Below, piece after piece: positions 35,910 through 42,851 of a DNA stretch of 64,000 bases (position 1 is its first letter; every line of letters starts with the position of its first letter). The notes beneath the pieces are model-generated. The model worked only from the letters and a program-made list of their open reading frames with translations. It was not told the DNA's origin and did no database searches. Position numbers and translations under genes: made by a program. The DNA comes from Pararhizobium sp. YC-54 (GTDB taxonomy: Bacteria; Pseudomonadota; Alphaproteobacteria; Rhizobiales; Rhizobiaceae), in NCBI RefSeq assembly GCF_025847205.1, contig NZ_JAOYTH010000016.1:99837-163836 (forward strand). Direction: 5' to 3'.

Positions 35910-37403
35910 GTGCAAGACATCGTACTCGACGCGACGCTCGACTGGCGCGCCGTGGCGGCGGTTGCCGATGGTGCAACGCTTTCTCTTTCTGGTGCTGCCA
36001 GACAGCGGGTCGAAACGGCCAGCCGGATCGTTTCGGCGATCGTCGAAAGCGGCGTGCGGGCCTACGGGGTGAATACCGGTGTCGGCGCACTCGCTGATAC
36101 GGTTGTCGATCGTCCTTCGCAGAGCCGCCTGTCACGCAACATCATCTTGAGCCACGCCTGCGGCGTTGGACCGTTGCTCGATGCCCGCGAGGTGCGCGGC
36201 ATCATTGCAGCACAGATTGTCAATTTTTCGCATGGCCATTCCGGGGTGCGCCCGGAAATCGTGGAACTGCTGCAGACCTTTCTGCGTCAGGACTGCATTC
36301 CCGAGGTGCCATCCAAGGGGTCGGCCGGTTATCTCAGCCACAATGCCCATATCGCACTTGTGTTGGTCGGCGAAGGCAAGGCTCGGCTGAAGGGAAAGCC
36401 CGTCGCCGGTGCCGAGGCTTTAAAGACGCTTGGCGTCGCACCGTTGGTTCTGCAGGCCAAGGAAGGCTTGAGCCTCGTCAACGGAACGGCCTGCTCCACG
36501 GGACTTGGCTCAGTGGCTTTGGCTCGGGCGGAGCGGCTTCTTGATTGGGCCGATGCGATTGCCGCACTGACGATCGAGGCACTCGGCTGCCAGATGACCG
36601 CCTTTGATGCGCCGGTGCTGGCGCTGCGCAAATCGGCGGGGATCGAGAAGGTCGGCAAGACCCTGCGCGGGCGTCTCGCCGGTAGCGGCCTGATCGAAGC
36701 TGCCAAGGGTGCGCGGACGCAGGACGCCCTGAGCCTTCGCTCGGTCCCGCATGCCCATGGCGCCGGATGGGATGTGTTTGATTTTGCAAGTATGGTGGTG
36801 GATCAGGAACTGGCTTCGGTGACCGATAATCCGGCGGTTTCCGGCACACCGGACGCACCGGTTGTCTCGTCTGAGGCGCATGCCGTGGCGCCGGCTCTCG
36901 GACAGGCGCTGGACAGCCTCGCCATTGCAATCGCCCAGATATCAATGATGAGCGAGCGCCGCATCGACCGCCTCGTCAATCCGCTGGTGAGCGGCCTTCC
37001 GGCCTTTCTTGCCGTCGATCCGGGCGCAGGCTCCGGCTTCATGATCGCCCAATATACGGCAGCCGCGCTTGCTGCGGAAAACCGGCGTCTCGGCACGCCG
37101 GCAAGCCTTGATGGCGGCATCACATCGGCGCTGCAGGAGGATTTCCTCGGGCATCCGACGGCTGCGGCCAACAAGCTTCTGGCGGTGGTCGACAATGCCG
37201 AACAGATCCTCGGCATCGAATTTGCGGCCGCTGCCCAGGCGCAGGATTTCAAGGCCAGTGTCGCCCCCCGGGCCAAGGGGACCGATATGCTCTATCGCCA
37301 TATCCGCGCCGATGTGCCAACCTATGCCGACGATCGGCCGCTCGGCTGGGATCTGGAAAAGGCCCGCGACCTCCTGCGCGGATCGCCGCCTCCCAATAGC
37401 TAA
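35910..37403 (+). CDS. histidine-ammonia-lyase homologue lacking the MIO triad
   Basis: A 497-residue member of the aromatic amino-acid lyase superfamily. It keeps YGVNTGVG (Tyr52 equals the catalytic Tyr of HAL), SRNIILSHACGVG, LVNGT and SVTDNP. The MIO loop is altered: HutH of this window reads [15 protein letters not shown], whereas this protein reads KGSAG-YLSHNAH at 136-147. The three residues Ala-Ser-Gly that cyclise into MIO are absent, and the flanks align without further gaps. It therefore cannot form the cofactor. Lyases that eliminate a better leaving group, such as ergothionase acting on a trimethylammonium histidine, do without MIO, so a methylated or betaine-type imidazole substrate is a fair guess. 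The start is GTG 35910 with CGGAGG upstream. Confidence 0.8.
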   Translation: MQDIVLDATLDWRAVAAVADGATLSLSGAARQRVETASRIVSAIVESGVRAYGVNTGVGALADTVVDRPSQSRLSRNIILSHACGVGPLLDAREVRGIIAAQIVNFSHGHSGVRPEIVELLQTFLRQDCIPEVPSKGSAGYLSHNAHIALVLVGEGKARLKGKPVAGAEALKTLGVAPLVLQAKEGLSLVNGTACSTGLGSVALARAERLLDWADAIAALTIEALGCQMTAFDAPVLALRKSAGIEKVGKTLRGRLAGSGLIEAAKGARTQDALSLRSVPHAHGAGWDVFDFASMVVDQELASVTDNPAVSGTPDAPVVSSEAHAVAPALGQALDSLAIAIAQISMMSERRIDRLVNPLVSGLPAFLAVDPGAGSGFMIAQYTAAALAAENRRLGTPASLDGGITSALQEDFLGHPTAAANKLLAVVDNAEQILGIEFAAAAQAQDFKASVAPRAKGTDMLYRHIRADVPTYADDRPLGWDLEKARDLLRGSPPPNS

Positions 37404-37439: not shown

Positions 37440-38597
37440 ATGACCGCCCATTTCGACGTTGCAGTTGTCGGCCTTGGCGCCATGGGAAGTGCCGCCATCG
37501 CCCATCTGGCTGCCCGAGGCGTGAACGCGATCGGCATCGACGCCTATTATCCGGCGCATGCGCTGAGCTCGTCGCATGGCGACAGCCGCCTGATCCGGCT
37601 CGGCTATTTCGAGGACCCGTCCTATGTACCGCTGTTGCAACGCGCCTATGCCAATTGGCGGACGCTGGAGGCACGGCTGCGCGAGGACGTCCTGACGATC
37701 ACCGGCGTCCTGCAGATCGGCAAGCCCGACAGCAAGATCGTCAGCGGCACGAAGAAGAGCTGTGTGCTGCACAACCTGCCGCTGGAAATGCTGAGCCCGG
37801 ACGAGATGCGCCGCCGTTTTCCGGTGTTTTCGCTGGACAGCGACGAAGTCGCATTGCTCGATCCGCAGGGCGGGTACCTCCGGCCGGAAGTGGCCGTCAT
37901 GGGCCATCTGAAGCTTGCGGCCGCAGACGGCGCGGCTTTGCATTTCGGTGAGAAGGTAACGGCGATCGAGCCGGGCGAGGGCGGGGTTGTCGTCGTTTCG
38001 GACACGGGACGCTATAGCGCTAGCAAGGTGATCGTAGCGACAGGCTCATGGATCGGGGAACTCGTGCCGTCGCTGCGCGATCATGCGGTGCCGATCAAGC
38101 AGGTCGTTTCCTGGTACCAACCGGCCGATGGTTTCGTCACCATGCCGCAGCGCATGCCCGTGTTCATTCGCGACGAGGGTGAGAACGGCTCTTTCTTCGG
38201 CTTCCCAGCCATCGGCGTCGATGGCGTCAAGGTCGGCCGTCATGCGCATTTTCGCGAGCCGATCGATCCGAACCAGCCCAATCCGCCTGTCAATGACAGG
38301 GATACCGATCTCCTCGACAGTTTCATCAAGCGCTGGCTTCCGTCCGCCGCCGGATTGCGGGTGCGCTCTGCCACCTGCCGCTACACGATGCTGCCGAGCG
38401 AGGATTTTCTGATCGACCTTTTACCGGGTAACAAGCGCATCGTCGTGGCATCGCCCTGCTCGGGCCACGGGTTCAAGTTCACCAGCGTCGTCGGAGAAAT
38501 CCTCGCCGATCTGGCGTTGGATGGCGGCACAGACCTGCCGATTGCCGCCTTTTCGTTTGCGGCAATGGACCGGTTTCTGGCGGCGCGGGCGGCGTGA
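37440..38597 (+). CDS. FAD-dependent N-methyl amino acid oxidase (MSOX/SolA type)
   Basis: A 385-residue DAO-family flavoprotein. It has the Rossmann motif VAVVGLGAMGSAAIAHLAARG (about 7-27), SSHGDSRLIRLGYF as in monomeric sarcosine oxidase and N-methyltryptophan oxidase, and CRYTMLPSEDFLID near residue 308, where the Cys is the covalent FAD attachment site in that family. GHGFKF closes the site. Such enzymes oxidise N-methyl amino acids to formaldehyde plus the free amino acid and hydrogen peroxide. It is last in the ABC-lyase operon (36 bp after the lyase, AAGGAT upstream), suggesting that the imported compound is N-methylated. Confidence 0.85.
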   Translation: MTAHFDVAVVGLGAMGSAAIAHLAARGVNAIGIDAYYPAHALSSSHGDSRLIRLGYFEDPSYVPLLQRAYANWRTLEARLREDVLTITGVLQIGKPDSKIVSGTKKSCVLHNLPLEMLSPDEMRRRFPVFSLDSDEVALLDPQGGYLRPEVAVMGHLKLAAADGAALHFGEKVTAIEPGEGGVVVVSDTGRYSASKVIVATGSWIGELVPSLRDHAVPIKQVVSWYQPADGFVTMPQRMPVFIRDEGENGSFFGFPAIGVDGVKVGRHAHFREPIDPNQPNPPVNDRDTDLLDSFIKRWLPSAAGLRVRSATCRYTMLPSEDFLIDLLPGNKRIVVASPCSGHGFKFTSVVGEILADLALDGGTDLPIAAFSFAAMDRFLAARAA

Positions 38598-38638
38598 GCA
38601 TAGCCTACGGCGCTCAGTGCCGTTTCCGAAACGCGGAC

Positions 38639-38671
38639 GCAGTCCGTCGCGCCATAGGCGCGACGGACTGC
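38639..38671. terminator. perfect 15-bp hairpin between convergent genes
   Basis: GCAGTCCGTCGCGCC (38639-38653), loop ATA, GGCGCGACGGACTGC (38657-38671). This stable, perfectly paired stem sits between the oxidase stop (38597) and the peptide-gene stop (38682). There is no long T tract on either side, but its position fits a bidirectional terminator. Confidence 0.7.
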
Positions 38672-38681
38672 TATAGCTCAA

Positions 38682-38930
38682 TCAGCGGTTAAAATCGGTT
38701 TTCCCAGAATTTCCCGGAACACCGTCGCCACCGCCGTTACCAAAGCCGTTGTTGCCCTTGGTTTTGCCACCGCCACCGCCACCGGACTTGGCAATCGCAT
38801 TCGATGTCAAGCTCGTCGACAGAAGCATAGTGATCGCTGGCGGAGTTACAGCTGCAAAGCGTCCGCAGCTTTTTAGGAACTCACGGCGGCCATCCGCGTC
38901 CTCGTGAGCGTCATTTGCCTTCTTTTGCAT
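38682..38930 (-). CDS. Tat-signal Gly/Asn-rich small protein, candidate RiPP-like precursor
   Basis: An 82-residue protein. Residues 1-14 are polar. RREFLK at 15-20 matches the twin-arginine consensus, followed by a hydrophobic core (FAAVTPPAITMLLSTS) and a cleavage-like AIA-K at 45-48. The remaining 35 residues have a Gly6 run and then GNNGFGNGGGDGVPGNSG, ending KTDFNR; Ser, Thr and Asp are available for modification. It is the last gene of a leftward group with a nucleotidyltransferase and an HPr-kinase-like protein, families that tailor lasso peptides elsewhere. I infer that this is their substrate. It has no cysteine apart from Cys22 in the leader. A weak GGGGA precedes the ATG. It could instead be a stand-alone secreted Gly-rich protein. 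Confidence 0.65.
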   Translation of the reverse strand: MQKKANDAHEDADGRREFLKSCGRFAAVTPPAITMLLSTSLTSNAIAKSGGGGGGKTKGNNGFGNGGGDGVPGNSGKTDFNR

Positions 38931-39092
38931 ATTCGCGTCCCCATTCTATAAGCTTGTCGTTGCCAGGTACCGACTGCAAAATGCATGTGCTTAAATGTGC
39001 AATCGCTAATGTACATCACAAGAACCCGCGCCGCCAGATACCAATGGATATATTTGTGCGCAGTCTCGGTAGCCCCCGACATTGGCAAACGC

Positions 39093-40178
39093 TTACGCCT
39101 TCCCCAGAGGTTTCGGCCGAAAGACCCGACGAAACTCACGGGCAACGCGTTTCAGCTCTTGCCGGCGAGACGCATGAGACATGCCACCATAGCGATCCCA
39201 GGATGGATAGCTTACGATCTCGGATAGAAATGCAGCAATCGTCAGCGGATGCCGCAGGTAGTCTCTACCGAGCTGGAGTTTTCGGCGAAGGAATTGAAGT
39301 CGCGGCAAAGTCCCGATCTTCAACCTGGTGATATCGGGTATACCAAAAAGGGCGTTGACCGTCAGAATCTGGGTATCCGTGGCGTTCTGCTCATATCCCG
39401 CCGCAAAGAGGGACCGGATTTTGGACCAATCTATCTCCTGCGCCGACCTGGCGATGGAGACGATATCCAGAAGATGGCGTAGGTCGATGAGACCACGCCA
39501 ATAGTCCCCGTCCTGGAATTGGTCATGCAGGACCAGATAGACGATCTGGGCAAATCCAGAGGGAATGTAGGCGTGGCCTTTTCCGAGACCCGTCCTTGTG
39601 GAATTCTGGTAAAGCCATTCGATGTCCTTGAACGACGCGGGACCCTTGGGCCGGCAGTGCACGTCGATGCTGCCAGCGTCGGAACCGCGCTCAAGCACCG
39701 TCGGCAGATGGGCTTCCGGGTCGCCCGGCCAAGTCCGGGCTCCGCCGTCGACCCTGACATCGTAGCCGATCGTCCGAAGCGCTTGGATGGCTTCTTGCAT
39801 TTTCGGTGGCCGTACCATGAGATCCAGGTCGATCAGAATGCGGCCGCCGAAATCGGATGTTGCCTGGCTCAGAAGGACCGCTGCGCCCTTCATGATGACA
39901 GGCTCGATTCCCGCTTCGTTGAGACATGCCACCGCTTCTTCAAGCTGAGAATAGAGCATTGCATTGCGCCTGGCGTTGGACGTGTAGATGACGTCCAGAT
40001 AGCCCCGCACTTCGTCGGGAACACCTGTTGGTTCGGCCGAATGGACGGCTGCGGCGAGTGAGGTGATCGTCATCGTCTGGTTTGCAAGAGCAATCACACA
40101 GTCCCAGTCAACGTCGTCAGGAAACCTGCCGACCAGACATGAAGCGAGACTGCGAAGAGCCTGGAAATCAGTCCGCAT
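39093..40178 (-). CDS. PF14907-like nucleotidyltransferase of RiPP-like cassette
   Basis: A protein of about 361 residues with the pattern of the uncharacterised nucleotidyltransferase family (NTP_transf_5). VIMKGAAVLL (near 95) is followed by GGRILIDLDLMVRP (near 110), whose DLD supplies the metal-binding aspartates. Later come IDVHCRP and a helical C-terminal part rich in Arg/Lys. Homologues occur in lasso-peptide clusters beside HPr-like kinases, where one was reported to act after phosphorylation of the peptide. The start at 40178 overlaps the kinase stop by 11 bp; 40211 is an alternative and neither has a good ribosome-binding site. Its G+C looks lower than the flanking catabolic genes. 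The target is inferred to be the small Gly-rich protein encoded downstream. Confidence 0.72.
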   Translation of the reverse strand: MRTDFQALRSLASCLVGRFPDDVDWDCVIALANQTMTITSLAAAVHSAEPTGVPDEVRGYLDVIYTSNARRNAMLYSQLEEAVACLNEAGIEPVIMKGAAVLLSQATSDFGGRILIDLDLMVRPPKMQEAIQALRTIGYDVRVDGGARTWPGDPEAHLPTVLERGSDAGSIDVHCRPKGPASFKDIEWLYQNSTRTGLGKGHAYIPSGFAQIVYLVLHDQFQDGDYWRGLIDLRHLLDIVSIARSAQEIDWSKIRSLFAAGYEQNATDTQILTVNALFGIPDITRLKIGTLPRLQFLRRKLQLGRDYLRHPLTIAAFLSEIVSYPSWDRYGGMSHASRRQELKRVAREFRRVFRPKPLGKA

Positions 40179-41271
40179 CGTGGAACCGAGCCAAGGCTTG
40201 GGCGCCGTCATCCAGTTGTGAGTAAGTCAATTCGATCCCCCGCGCCGCATTAACCATGCCCAACATGCTCTCGAATTGCATCGTGCTCAACCGACGTTGC
40301 GGGTTACTGGCTTCTGAAATAATCTTCGCGAGGACCTGCAGTGGTTCCACCGGCAATGTCCTTGCCTTGCCCCTCCGCGTGCGGTTGAGGAGAACGATGG
40401 TCTTCAAGGTGATTCCCCGATTGGCGTCGTGAGGCGGAAGCGGCAGGTAGCGCACCAGCTTGCCATCCAAACGCAGATGCACGGGATGCGAAAAAAGACT
40501 TTCGCGAATCTGTGGTAGCAGTTTCCATGAATGCGCCTTCACGGCCGCCGCGAACGCAACCCCGCTGATCGTTCCGCCGGTGTGCAGCAGCGCAATGTCG
40601 TCTGCATAGGTTTGAAAGCCGCATTGCATGAGCGCGAGCGCCAAGGTCGTCTTGCCGGCGCCGGGTGATCCGCAGAGAAAAATCGCCCCGGAACCGTTTG
40701 CGAGAAGCGCTCCGTGGAGCGCGGTATTCATGCCGAGGCTCGCGATGACCTCGTCGGTCAGAAGACCTTTCAGCGCTGGCACCGCTTCCCGCCGGCCGAC
40801 GATCATCGCGTCTTGCCCCGGCCCTGCGATGCAGACGCCGTTGCCGAATCTGGCCAGGGTATACTGTTTCGGCGCAGAACTGGTACGTGGACTGCTTGGA
40901 GGCAGCATAGGGCGCACCAGTTCCATCAGCGCCTCGTCGTAACAGCTTATGCGGATCTCCCGGCCTGTGATTTCAACGAGTTCAGAGCGAGAGGGCGATC
41001 CGTCACTCTTTTCGAATTCGACTTGCAGCAATCCCTGCCGGGACCAGAAGCGCAAATATTGGGTCAAATAGGTGCGCGCCGAGGATCTCCTCATGCCTTC
41101 ACCGACAAGGTTGGCTTCCAGCGTTTCGAACGACACTGGTCGGGAAAGTTCAGAGGTAACGTAGGCCGTGATTTCGTCGATCTCGAAGAGTTGCTGTGAT
41201 GCCTCGACGAAAATCGTCCTGCGATTGCCGACGGAACAGGGGTGTCCACCGGCGGCGAGCCGAAATCTCAT
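40168..41271 (-). CDS. HPr-kinase-like protein with N-terminal PqqD-like (RRE) region
   Basis: A 367-residue protein. Residues 20-85 (IFVEASQQLFEIDEIT to FWSRQGLLQVEF) read like a PqqD-type RiPP recognition element: short strands, then a three-helix pattern ending in GLL. The second half is HprK-like: LHGALL with His186, as the conserved histidine before the P-loop, Walker A GSPGAGKTT at 201-209, and ADD at 223-225 as the metal-binding site. HprK homologues in lasso-peptide clusters phosphorylate a serine of the precursor. This one carries its own apparent recognition domain and is the first gene of the cassette, overlapping the nucleotidyltransferase. AGGGA lies about eight bases before the ATG. 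Both the RRE reading and the kinase role need a profile search. Confidence 0.72.
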   Translation of the reverse strand: MRFRLAAGGHPCSVGNRRTIFVEASQQLFEIDEITAYVTSELSRPVSFETLEANLVGEGMRRSSARTYLTQYLRFWSRQGLLQVEFEKSDGSPSRSELVEITGREIRISCYDEALMELVRPMLPPSSPRTSSAPKQYTLARFGNGVCIAGPGQDAMIVGRREAVPALKGLLTDEVIASLGMNTALHGALLANGSGAIFLCGSPGAGKTTLALALMQCGFQTYADDIALLHTGGTISGVAFAAAVKAHSWKLLPQIRESLFSHPVHLRLDGKLVRYLPLPPHDANRGITLKTIVLLNRTRRGKARTLPVEPLQVLAKIISEASNPQRRLSTMQFESMLGMVNAARGIELTYSQLDDGAQALARFHDAD

Positions 41272-41547
41272 TGAGACGTTCCCTCGACCGGGGCAAAGCC
41301 TGCTTTCACATTCCGCACCCTCAATGAAGCGGCAGGATGGCGAGGATCTTCAAACTGAACTGCTTGCGCCCCCCAGAGGAGTCGCGCTTCCCGACTCGCT
41401 CAATTATCCCGGTATGTTAGCAGCATTCGCGGGAAGCACCACAGCATGATGCAGAGCCAACCGGAAATCTCGCCGGCGTTTGCCGGGCGCGTGATCTGCC
41501 ATGTGCTGGGGCTCCTTGCCCGCAGAGTGTAGCTCTCAGCCTCAGCC

Positions 41548-42141
41548 TCAGCTCGCGGTAATGCGGATGAGGTACGCCTCTGCCGGCATGTCGGACGTGA
41601 TCAGGACCACACCCTCGAGAACGGCGCAATCGAGCCGGCCGAGCTCTTCGGCATGATCTCCACCCTCGATCCGCATATTGCCGAGCGAAAGAAGCATCGT
41701 GACGCCGCCCTCGGCGTCCAGATGGTGCTGCCCTTCGACGATCCGCTTTTCGACCTGATGCGTCCATTGTCCGCGCCGGGTCATGACGTTCAGATCGACG
41801 ATGGTACCTGATACCAGCCGCGCGGATGTCGCCGCATCGGCCGGGAAGGGCAGCGGTGCAGATGCCCTGGTCAACACGACGGGTTTGCGCCCGGCAATAT
41901 CGAGTTCCATGCCTTCGCCTTCAATGATCGACAGGGTGCGGTCGATGCCGGCAAAGACGGAGAATGGGCCGTCGCTTGCCACCGTTGCCATGCTGATGCG
42001 CCAGCCAAAGGCGGCGAGATCGGCCTCCGGTGGGAAGACCGCAATCTCGACCGTTTCGCCGCCGCCGTTCTTCCATGGCATGCGGCGATGGTCAGCGGCT
42101 CTCAAAACCCTGATCCGAGCGTGCGATTGTTCGTCGTGCAT
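41548..42141 (-). CDS. hutD: HutD family protein
   Basis: A 197-residue cupin-like HutD protein (PF05962). The family motifs are visible: RMPWKNGGGETVEIAVFP near the N-terminus, FGWRISMATVASDGPFSVFAGIDRTL, and a C-terminal LEGVVLI. HutD is linked to control of histidine flux and may bind formylglutamate; its exact role is unsettled. The start at 42141 follows GAGG by six bases; an in-frame Met at 42153 lacks such a site. It is cut off from the other leftward hut genes by the toxin-antitoxin pair on the opposite strand, so it must have its own promoter, within the 57 bp shared with the antitoxin gene. Confidence 0.85.
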   Translation of the reverse strand: MHDEQSHARIRVLRAADHRRMPWKNGGGETVEIAVFPPEADLAAFGWRISMATVASDGPFSVFAGIDRTLSIIEGEGMELDIAGRKPVVLTRASAPLPFPADAATSARLVSGTIVDLNVMTRRGQWTHQVEKRIVEGQHHLDAEGGVTMLLSLGNMRIEGGDHAEELGRLDCAVLEGVVLITSDMPAEAYLIRITAS

Positions 42142-42182: not shown

Positions 42183-42198
42183 CCGAAGGAGGGCGGTG

Positions 42199-42462
42199 AT
42201 GGAAACGATCAACATTCACGAAGCCAAGACACATTTGTCTCGCCTGATGGAGAAAGTGTCAAAGGGCGAATCGTTCATCATTGCCAAGGCCGGAAAGCCG
42301 ATCGGAAAGCTTGTGCCCCTTGATGATACCGAAACACCAAAGAAGCGCCGGATCGGCTTCATGAAAGGTGAAATCGTCGTACCGGATGACTTCGATACGA
42401 TGATGGCCGATGAAATCGAAGAGATGTTTTACGGCAATCCCGACAAATTCAAACACCGATGA
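42199..42462 (+). CDS. Phd/YefM-type antitoxin
   Basis: An 87-residue antitoxin. The N-terminal Phd fold is clear: INIHEAKTHLSRLMEKVSKGESFIIAKAGKPIGKLVPL. A C-terminal toxin-neutralising tail (GEIVVPDDFDTMMADEIEEMF) follows. ATG 42199 is preceded by AAGGAGG; an in-frame GTG at 42196 is too close to it. It overlaps the PIN toxin by four bases (ATGA). The pair reads against the hut genes on both sides. Confidence 0.9.
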   Translation: METINIHEAKTHLSRLMEKVSKGESFIIAKAGKPIGKLVPLDDTETPKKRRIGFMKGEIVVPDDFDTMMADEIEEMFYGNPDKFKHR

Positions 42463-42851
42463 GATTTCTGCTCGATACACATATCCTGATCTGGGCAGCT
42501 GGCGATATCGATCTTCTGTCGACAGGTGTCAGGCTGCTCATTGAAGATACGAGCAACGAGCTTCTTTTCAGTCCTGCCAGCATCTGGGAAACGGCGATCA
42601 AACACAGTCTCGGACGGGACGATTTTCGAACCGATCCCTTCGTTCTGCGCTATCGCCTTCTCGAAAACGGCTACACTGAGCTTCCAATCAATAGCGAACA
42701 CGCAATTGCGATTGCGGGTCTGCCTTTGCTTCACAAAGACCCCTTCGATCGCATCCTGATCGCTCAGGCCATTATCGAAGGGGTTCCGCTTATAACGGTT
42801 GACGATGTGATTCTTCGATATCCCGGTCTTCCGAAATATTCGCTGATCTAA
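42459..42851 (+). CDS. PIN-domain toxin (VapC type)
   Basis: A 130-residue PIN-domain RNase. The acidic residues are in place: Asp6 in LLDTHILIW, Glu in SIWETAIK (about 43), Asp in DPFDRILIAQA (about 93), and Asp in ITVDD (about 112). The toxin would cleave RNA, commonly initiator tRNA or rRNA, when free of the antitoxin encoded just upstream. It stops three bases before the convergent hutU stop, so read-through in either direction gives antisense RNA. All key residues are present, so it is probably active. Confidence 0.9.
   Translation: MRFLLDTHILIWAAGDIDLLSTGVRLLIEDTSNELLFSPASIWETAIKHSLGRDDFRTDPFVLRYRLLENGYTELPINSEHAIAIAGLPLLHKDPFDRILIAQAIIEGVPLITVDDVILRYPGLPKYSLI

Follow-up and report, generated by a model that had tools for sequence, protein, structure and literature searches.

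Can a kinase with its own leader-reading domain, encoded beside a nucleotidyltransferase and a small protein with a twin-arginine-type start, be part of a unit that tags the small protein before export? The question is raised by three leftward genes at positions 38,682 to 41,271 of a 64,000-nucleotide stretch of DNA from Pararhizobium sp. YC-54 (assembly GCF_025847205.1, contig NZ_JAOYTH010000016.1; the whole stretch is called the window below, and coordinates are those of the window). A sequence-only reading had noticed these genes and interpreted them as a cassette resembling those for ribosomally synthesized and post-translationally modified peptides (RiPPs). The open reading frames (ORFs) place all three on the minus strand, and the observation itself is confirmed, being stronger than that first reading could know; the RiPP-like interpretation as a whole is partly supported. 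We call the genes and their products S (small protein), N (nucleotidyltransferase) and K (kinase), and hold it highly probable that they are one functional unit. Their parts are listed here, with the grounds in brackets (aa, amino acids; Tat, twin-arginine translocation; RRE, RiPP recognition element; PEPCK, phosphoenolpyruvate carboxykinase).

38682..38930, minus strand: S, small protein of 82 aa with a Tat-like leader and a Gly/Asn-rich tail, putative substrate (ORF, homologues, alignment A1)
38787..38888, minus strand: residues 15-48 of S, the leader RREFLKSCGRFAAVTPPAITMLLSTSLTSNAIAK (conservation per position, 223/226 members with the RR motif)
38682..38786, minus strand: residues 49-82 of S and the stop, the tail, from the conserved Ser after AxA-x; GNNGxGNG...R in its own subfamily
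39093..40178, minus strand: N, PF14907 nucleotidyltransferase, 361 aa from the likelier start at 40178 (Pfam, homologue starts, model)
40168..41271, minus strand: K, RRE-HprK-like kinase, 367 aa (TIGR04352, PF07475, model)
41002..41271, minus strand: residues 1-90 of K, predicted PqqD-like RRE (profile A6, Foldseek)
40168..40734, minus strand: residues 180-367 of K, HprK/PEPCK-fold kinase domain with H186, K207, D224 and D225 (alignment, Foldseek)

The small protein, the kinase and the nucleotidyltransferase

The small protein is much as it was first described: 82 residues in which RREFLK is followed by a hydrophobic stretch and AIA, and the last 34 or so form a Gly/Asn-rich tail. A search with S gave 776 homologues at E<=0.1 out of 787 candidates, of which the best 120 were listed. 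In alignment A1, NNGxGNG and a C-terminal Arg are invariant across 33 members; A1 was built from homologues of the window S, and its invariant columns describe that subfamily only. Because of these homologues and invariant residues, S is no chance ORF. It is a member of a large alphaproteobacterial family in which the leader is strongly conserved and the tails are very different. The RR motif is present in 223 of the 226 unique members in the fetched sets, and counting from it the leader continues with F (99%), L (97%), G, R/K (99%) and FA (99%), with Lys or Arg at RR+9 in 99% of the family, and further on with TPP (98-99%), T, LL, T and S, then AxA. The residue at AxA+2 is Ser in every one of the 218 members (of 223) in which the fixed pattern could be placed. 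The tails, in turn, are of the GNNGxGNG type in 141 members, 136 of which end in Arg; others are GDKNHIHVGPPG, His-rich, basic, Thr-rich or of further types, and the last residue is Ser or Thr in only 12 of 234 family members. A conserved leader block followed by widely differing tails is the pattern of a RiPP precursor, and S also has adjoining genes for putative modifying enzymes. Three divergent small partners (loci L122, L129 and L132) have a C-terminal GHSGC ending in common.

K shows the motifs LHGALL, GSPGAGKTT and DD, and the residues H186, K207, D224 and D225 do not vary across the 43 aligned rows of its family, which bears out the HprK-type layout of a His followed by a P-loop that had been read from the sequence. 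The same four residues make up the His-Lys-Asp-Asp motif of the lasso-peptide tailoring kinases, where mutation has shown that the motif matters (PMC9266682; this and the other sources cited by PMC number were available in part, and what is said of them holds for those parts). The models for kinases of this kind match K below their cut-offs: the NCBIfam model for HprK-related kinase A (TIGR04352) at E 1.6e-17 and 63.5 bits, and the Pfam HPr kinase model (PF07475) at 2.2e-4. An AlphaFold model of K (mean pLDDT 91.8) lies near PEPCKs and HprK in Foldseek.

From profile and model evidence, K is predicted to carry an RRE of the lasso type in its residues 1-90, where a PqqD-like winged-helix fold is indicated by both. 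This assignment is made because a profile from the first ~90 residues alone of 10 sequences (A6) has lasso RREs as its top three PDB matches (TbiB1, 4.8e-5; the lasso PqqD-family chaperone 9x90, 1.1e-4; TfuB1, 0.0025), because Foldseek places the lasso RREs 5v1v (E 8.9e-3, target TM 0.82, rmsd 2.9) and 6jx3 (E 0.028, target TM 0.80) near the model of K, and because the Pfam PqqD model matches 29 of the 43 K family members at E<=0.1. The PqqD-like N-terminus proposed by the sequence-only reading is thus upheld by the family profile and the structure model, whereas the Pfam PqqD model gave no match to the window K itself at E<=10. A second structural look at K returned rows that were all PEPCK and is not evidence on the RRE either way.

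N matches PF14907 at 3.2e-31, so that its first assignment to this family stands. Its longest ORF starts at 40211 (372-aa numbering); the start at 40178 is likelier, because most of the aligned homologues start on that Met or close to it, and it gives an 11-bp overlap with the K stop. In 26 aligned sequences K108-G109, R124, D128 and D130 (372-aa numbering) are invariant. The folds nearest to the model of N (pLDDT 87.2) are ANT(2'')-Ia and LnuA, with a weaker likeness to FKRP, a sugar-phosphate transferase; a PDB sequence search with N gave a single match, at E 0.71, which is not a credible relative.

Co-occurrence of the three genes and the HPr-rel-A system

If the three genes work together, they should travel together. 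Among 397 genomes of the host's order, taken from named relatives to be Hyphomicrobiales, 13 have S at E<=1e-4, one of these with a stop inside the gene, 25 have K at E<=1e-20 and 31 have N at E<=1e-15. S occurs with K in 12/13 genomes (P 2.4e-15) and with N in 12/13 (P 6e-14), both P values being uncorrected for relatedness, and K occurs with N in 22/25. At the level of loci, both K and N lie within 3 kb of S in 41 of 80 named S loci, and K only in two more; the conserved neighbourhood expected of the cassette is therefore found across genomes. In those 41 loci K lies upstream of S on the same strand in 30, downstream in three, divergently in seven and otherwise in one, a variation in gene order that argues for function and not for inherited synteny alone. 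S adjoins K in all five fetched plasmid K loci (of 28 matching records). Among the 13 K genomes without an S at the level of A1, six carry an ORF close to K that resembles the leader (E 4.5e-6 to 0.29), and in a profile comparison the divergent leaders of the host's order matched the window-type leader with 96% probability. Large cadherin/Big_9 or Bap-like proteins adjoin the cassettes of Mesorhizobium and Leisingera (L069 11592-14945; L117 4226-11173).

A cassette of this kind has already been half named by NCBIfam, whose uncharacterised HPr-rel-A system has an HprK-related kinase A (TIGR04352) and a PqqD family peptide chaperone (TIGR04353). In a sample of 200 genomes from across the phylum, 43 have a kinase that matches TIGR04352 (41 above the cut-off), and for ten of the 43 the locus was fetched and the upstream ORF picked by eye as the partner. 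A twin-arginine pattern lies in the first 160 residues of 9/10 such partners versus 4/131 other ORFs of the same loci and 66/1585 others, and in the first 80 residues of 8/10 versus 3/131 and 47/1585; the partner that lacks it is that of L182, which has RKR. Four of the partners (L176, L183, L184 and L185) have in common an SCWxS ending near the C-terminus.

Several traits are shared with the cassette. HPr-rel-A combines a PqqD-like domain with an HprK-like kinase, it has a partner ORF of the twin-arginine type upstream of the kinase in 9/10 loci, and an N-family nucleotidyltransferase lies beside the kinase in 9/10 loci (PF14907 confirmed for the one tested), a trait that comes from our own reading of the ten loci and not from NCBI's definition, and which the cassette shares. 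Against this, PqqD has a gene of its own in the three HPr-rel-A loci tested (3/3 match TIGR04353), whereas in the window the RRE is fused to K; S, N and K all lack a match to TIGR04353 itself at E<=10, although a PqqD-like domain is present in K. The HPr-rel-A partners are 138-294 aa long in 9/10 loci (stop to stop) and 73 aa in the tenth, compared with 82 aa for S; XrtA/PEP-CTERM glycan genes occur in 3/4 of the loci tested for neighbours, whereas the cassette lies in a hut cluster; and TIGR04352 has a cut-off of 200 bits, which K does not reach. The cassette is a distant, RRE-fused variant of the HPr-rel-A system. The sequence-only reading had expected a new RiPP-like architecture: the RRE-fused kinase with its Tat-type partner stands, while the architecture is not wholly new, given that NCBIfam had named HPr-rel-A and that the N-family gene recurs beside its kinases.

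Among the matches listed in a search of open-licence literature, no study of the HPr-rel-A, RRE-kinase or twin-arginine cassette was recognised. In its available text PMC9064862 mentions PqqD chaperones for lasso clusters only, and the terms HPr, kinase and nucleotidyltransferase are absent from the available parts of the RRE-Finder paper (PMC7470986) and of a structure-based RRE paper of 2025 (PMC12710340). Within the literature searched, three things are new: a candidate substrate family of the Tat type, an RRE-kinase fusion that is its likely reader, and how widely both are spread. A substrate candidate can thereby be named for a widespread and uncharacterised bacterial system.

Proposed mechanism and rival explanations

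What could the unit do? We favour, tentatively, a self-contained cassette for protein tagging that acts before export. S is probably the substrate of K and N, and we lean towards its conserved leader being what the RRE of K would bind. The HprK-fold domain of K would then phosphorylate a Ser or Thr of S, most plausibly the conserved Ser at position +2 from the putative signal-peptidase site AxA, and N, an MNT-fold transferase, would cap or extend the phosphate with a nucleotide or a sugar-phosphate. The analogy is with pseudomycoidin, which PsmK phosphorylates and to whose phosphate a hexose is added through PsmN (PMC9266682). Ser phosphorylation followed by capping is an evenly balanced proposal. 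The leader of S would double as a twin-arginine signal, the tagged peptide leaving by Tat and being cut at AxA, and export by this route is marginally favoured by the motifs in the leader.

A bolder version, which we put forward as a conjecture, is that an RRE was co-opted for reading a twin-arginine signal and that K may serve as a proofreading chaperone for Tat, one that holds S, phosphorylates it, hands it to N and then frees the signal. To our knowledge the REMP chaperones, TorD and DmsD among them, have folds unrelated to that of K and include no kinase. Their likeness to the role proposed for K lies in the binding of twin-arginine signals, which they do during cofactor insertion (PMC3316669, PMC8428690). 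Bufferins and other signal-peptide RiPPs are alike in another respect: an export signal takes the place of the leader in their precursors, so that premature export must be avoided (PMC12452194). They depend on Sec signals, on MNIO enzymes and on partner proteins of other kinds, whereas the cassette has a Tat-type signal, a kinase and an RRE. If the RRE does read a Tat signal, recognising the leader and controlling export would coincide in a single event. That would answer for Tat what the authors of the bufferin work ask about Sec, namely how export before modification is avoided (PMC12452194). If the proofreading proposal is true, there would be a RiPP-like class that is phospho-capped and exported by Tat, and HPr-rel-A would gain its substrate.

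Several observations weigh against our favoured reading. Neither K nor N lies within 3 kb in 37/80 S loci (seven of the 37 near a contig end), and 7/13 K genomes without an S at the level of A1 have no credible leader ORF near K. A hand count by strain places 19 of the 37 orphan S loci in strains with K at another fetched locus, from which one enzyme pair may serve several small proteins. The lengths of most HPr-rel-A partners, given above, speak against a simple RiPP; homology of their leaders to those of the window type is unsupported (hhalign probability 34%); and the score of K is far under the TIGR04352 cut-off. At L127 (4185-4618) two tiny tandem ORFs adjoin a kinase-nucleotidyltransferase pair; these candidate partners, which are weak matches (E 0.0055 and 0.051), end almost at the leader, so that a modified tail is not universal. 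Two further points, the charge within the leader and the recurrent glycan and adhesin neighbours, belong to rivals of their own.

The same modification unit could work without Tat, the block RR-FL-G(K/R)FA-TPPA-T-LLSTSLTS being purely a leader for RRE binding and perhaps a membrane anchor too, with S staying at the inner membrane or taking another route; we consider this unlikely, though it is the most serious of the rivals. The near-invariant TPP, T, LL and T and the 99% Lys/Arg at RR+9 exceed the needs of a Tat signal, and the hydrophobic (h-) region, which in a Tat substrate would be free of charge, contains Lys or Arg in 219/219 scored S members versus 5/19 control RR-signal ORFs of the same loci, which is unusual for a Tat signal; these controls are few, and many are Mesorhizobium orthologues. 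Set against this are the twin-arginine start (RRxFLK in S, RRxF[LVM] in general), the AxA site and a hydrophobicity of the h-region (1.67 in the S family versus 1.71 in the same 19 controls) that fit Tat signals, as well as a TatC gene encoded in this genome; moreover, nine of the ten sampled HPr-rel-A partners have an RR-type start but not that exact block. An improbable alternative makes S an effector or structural surface peptide tied to exopolysaccharide or adhesins, with K and N modifying another target such as a glycan, a lipid or an adhesin. It draws on one cluster of large proteins near S in 18/80 loci (its one tested member is cadherin/Big_9), on other recurrent neighbours of S whose representatives are Wzy_C, a sugar transferase and polysaccharide genes, on the S-K-N cassette of Leisingera, which adjoins a 2315-aa adhesin-like protein and glycan genes, on the XrtA/PEP-CTERM genes of HPr-rel-A loci and on the weak likeness of N to FKRP. 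An RRE, by contrast, is a domain that reads peptides, the window cassette sits in a hut cluster, and the plasmid cassettes of S. meliloti and E. canadensis have no annotated glycan cluster within 8 kb; the 18 loci are mostly from Mesorhizobium, with two from Ensifer, and may reflect one lineage effect.

Two further explanations fare much worse. Lasso-peptide tailoring (PadeK, ThcoK, SyanK; PsmK/PsmN) resembles the cassette in its HprK-type kinase with the His-Lys-Asp-Asp motif and, for PsmK/PsmN, in the pairing of a kinase with a nucleotidyltransferase that acts on a ribosomal peptide (PMC9266682), and lasso-type RREs are likewise known in lasso clusters; a lasso pathway with cyclase and protease encoded elsewhere is nevertheless scarcely credible. 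The cassette differs in that its RRE is fused to K, its genome lacks the B2 protease and S lacks a C-terminal Ser, the target of the lasso kinases. The absence of the protease from the neighbourhood, remarked on at the outset, extends to the genome, where PF13471 was not found at E<=0.001; it is present in 1/12 genomes with both S and K. For these reasons, the missing PF13471 and the missing C-terminal Ser, we rejected the lasso pathway. No asparagine-synthase-like lasso cyclase is among the identified flanking genes, to which that search was confined, a genome-wide cyclase search not having been made. MNT-fold enzymes occur in toxin-antitoxin and anti-phage systems, and an MNT-fold enzyme, a kinase and a small peptide might form such a unit, all the more as the cassette shifts from site to site and is also plasmid-borne. 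We regard this as very improbable: in PADLOC only K was matched, twice and weakly, over the P-loop (E 5e-4 and 0.0018), with nothing for N or S, and many S loci have no K or N nearby.

The cassette in the hut cluster

How the favoured unit came to lie in a hut cluster can be asked by comparison within the genus. Of the 25 other genomes of the genus that have HutD, eight were compared at this locus. In seven of them the DAO gene and HutD flank an arginase-family gene, and the eighth has neither that gene nor the DAO gene; the family was assigned by Pfam on one relative's gene, to which the others are 80-97% identical. Homology between the window and these relatives stops at 38593-38632 and resumes at 41484-41561. 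The arginase-family gene has no copy in the window, and outside the window the genome offers no match closer than 42% identity. K is present in only 3/101 relatives, the genome itself included. The cassette was most likely swapped in, in place of the arginase-family gene of the relatives' hut cluster; its G+C content is 57.9%, versus 60.2-63.9% in five flanking genes. Two features belong to this block.

38633..41546, no strand: replaced block, ends approximate (homology breaks versus genus relatives)
38639..38671, no strand: perfect 15-bp hairpin with a loop of 3, directly behind the S stop (by eye, repeat search, folding)

Allowing <=3 mismatches, the 15-bp hairpin has no second site in the genome, and none of 200 shuffles folds as well as the 91 nt in which it lies. 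It may be a transcript terminator, though it is without a T tract; a promoter and terminator scan gave no match.

Two neighbours of the block are of separate interest. A Phd/PIN toxin-antitoxin pair lies between HutD and HutU (window 42196-42851); it occurs in 4/8 relatives and was not found in the other four at E<=1e-10. On the other side, a second aromatic amino acid lyase (PF00221, window 35910-37403) adjoins ABC transporter genes and is ~40% identical to the HutH of the relatives.

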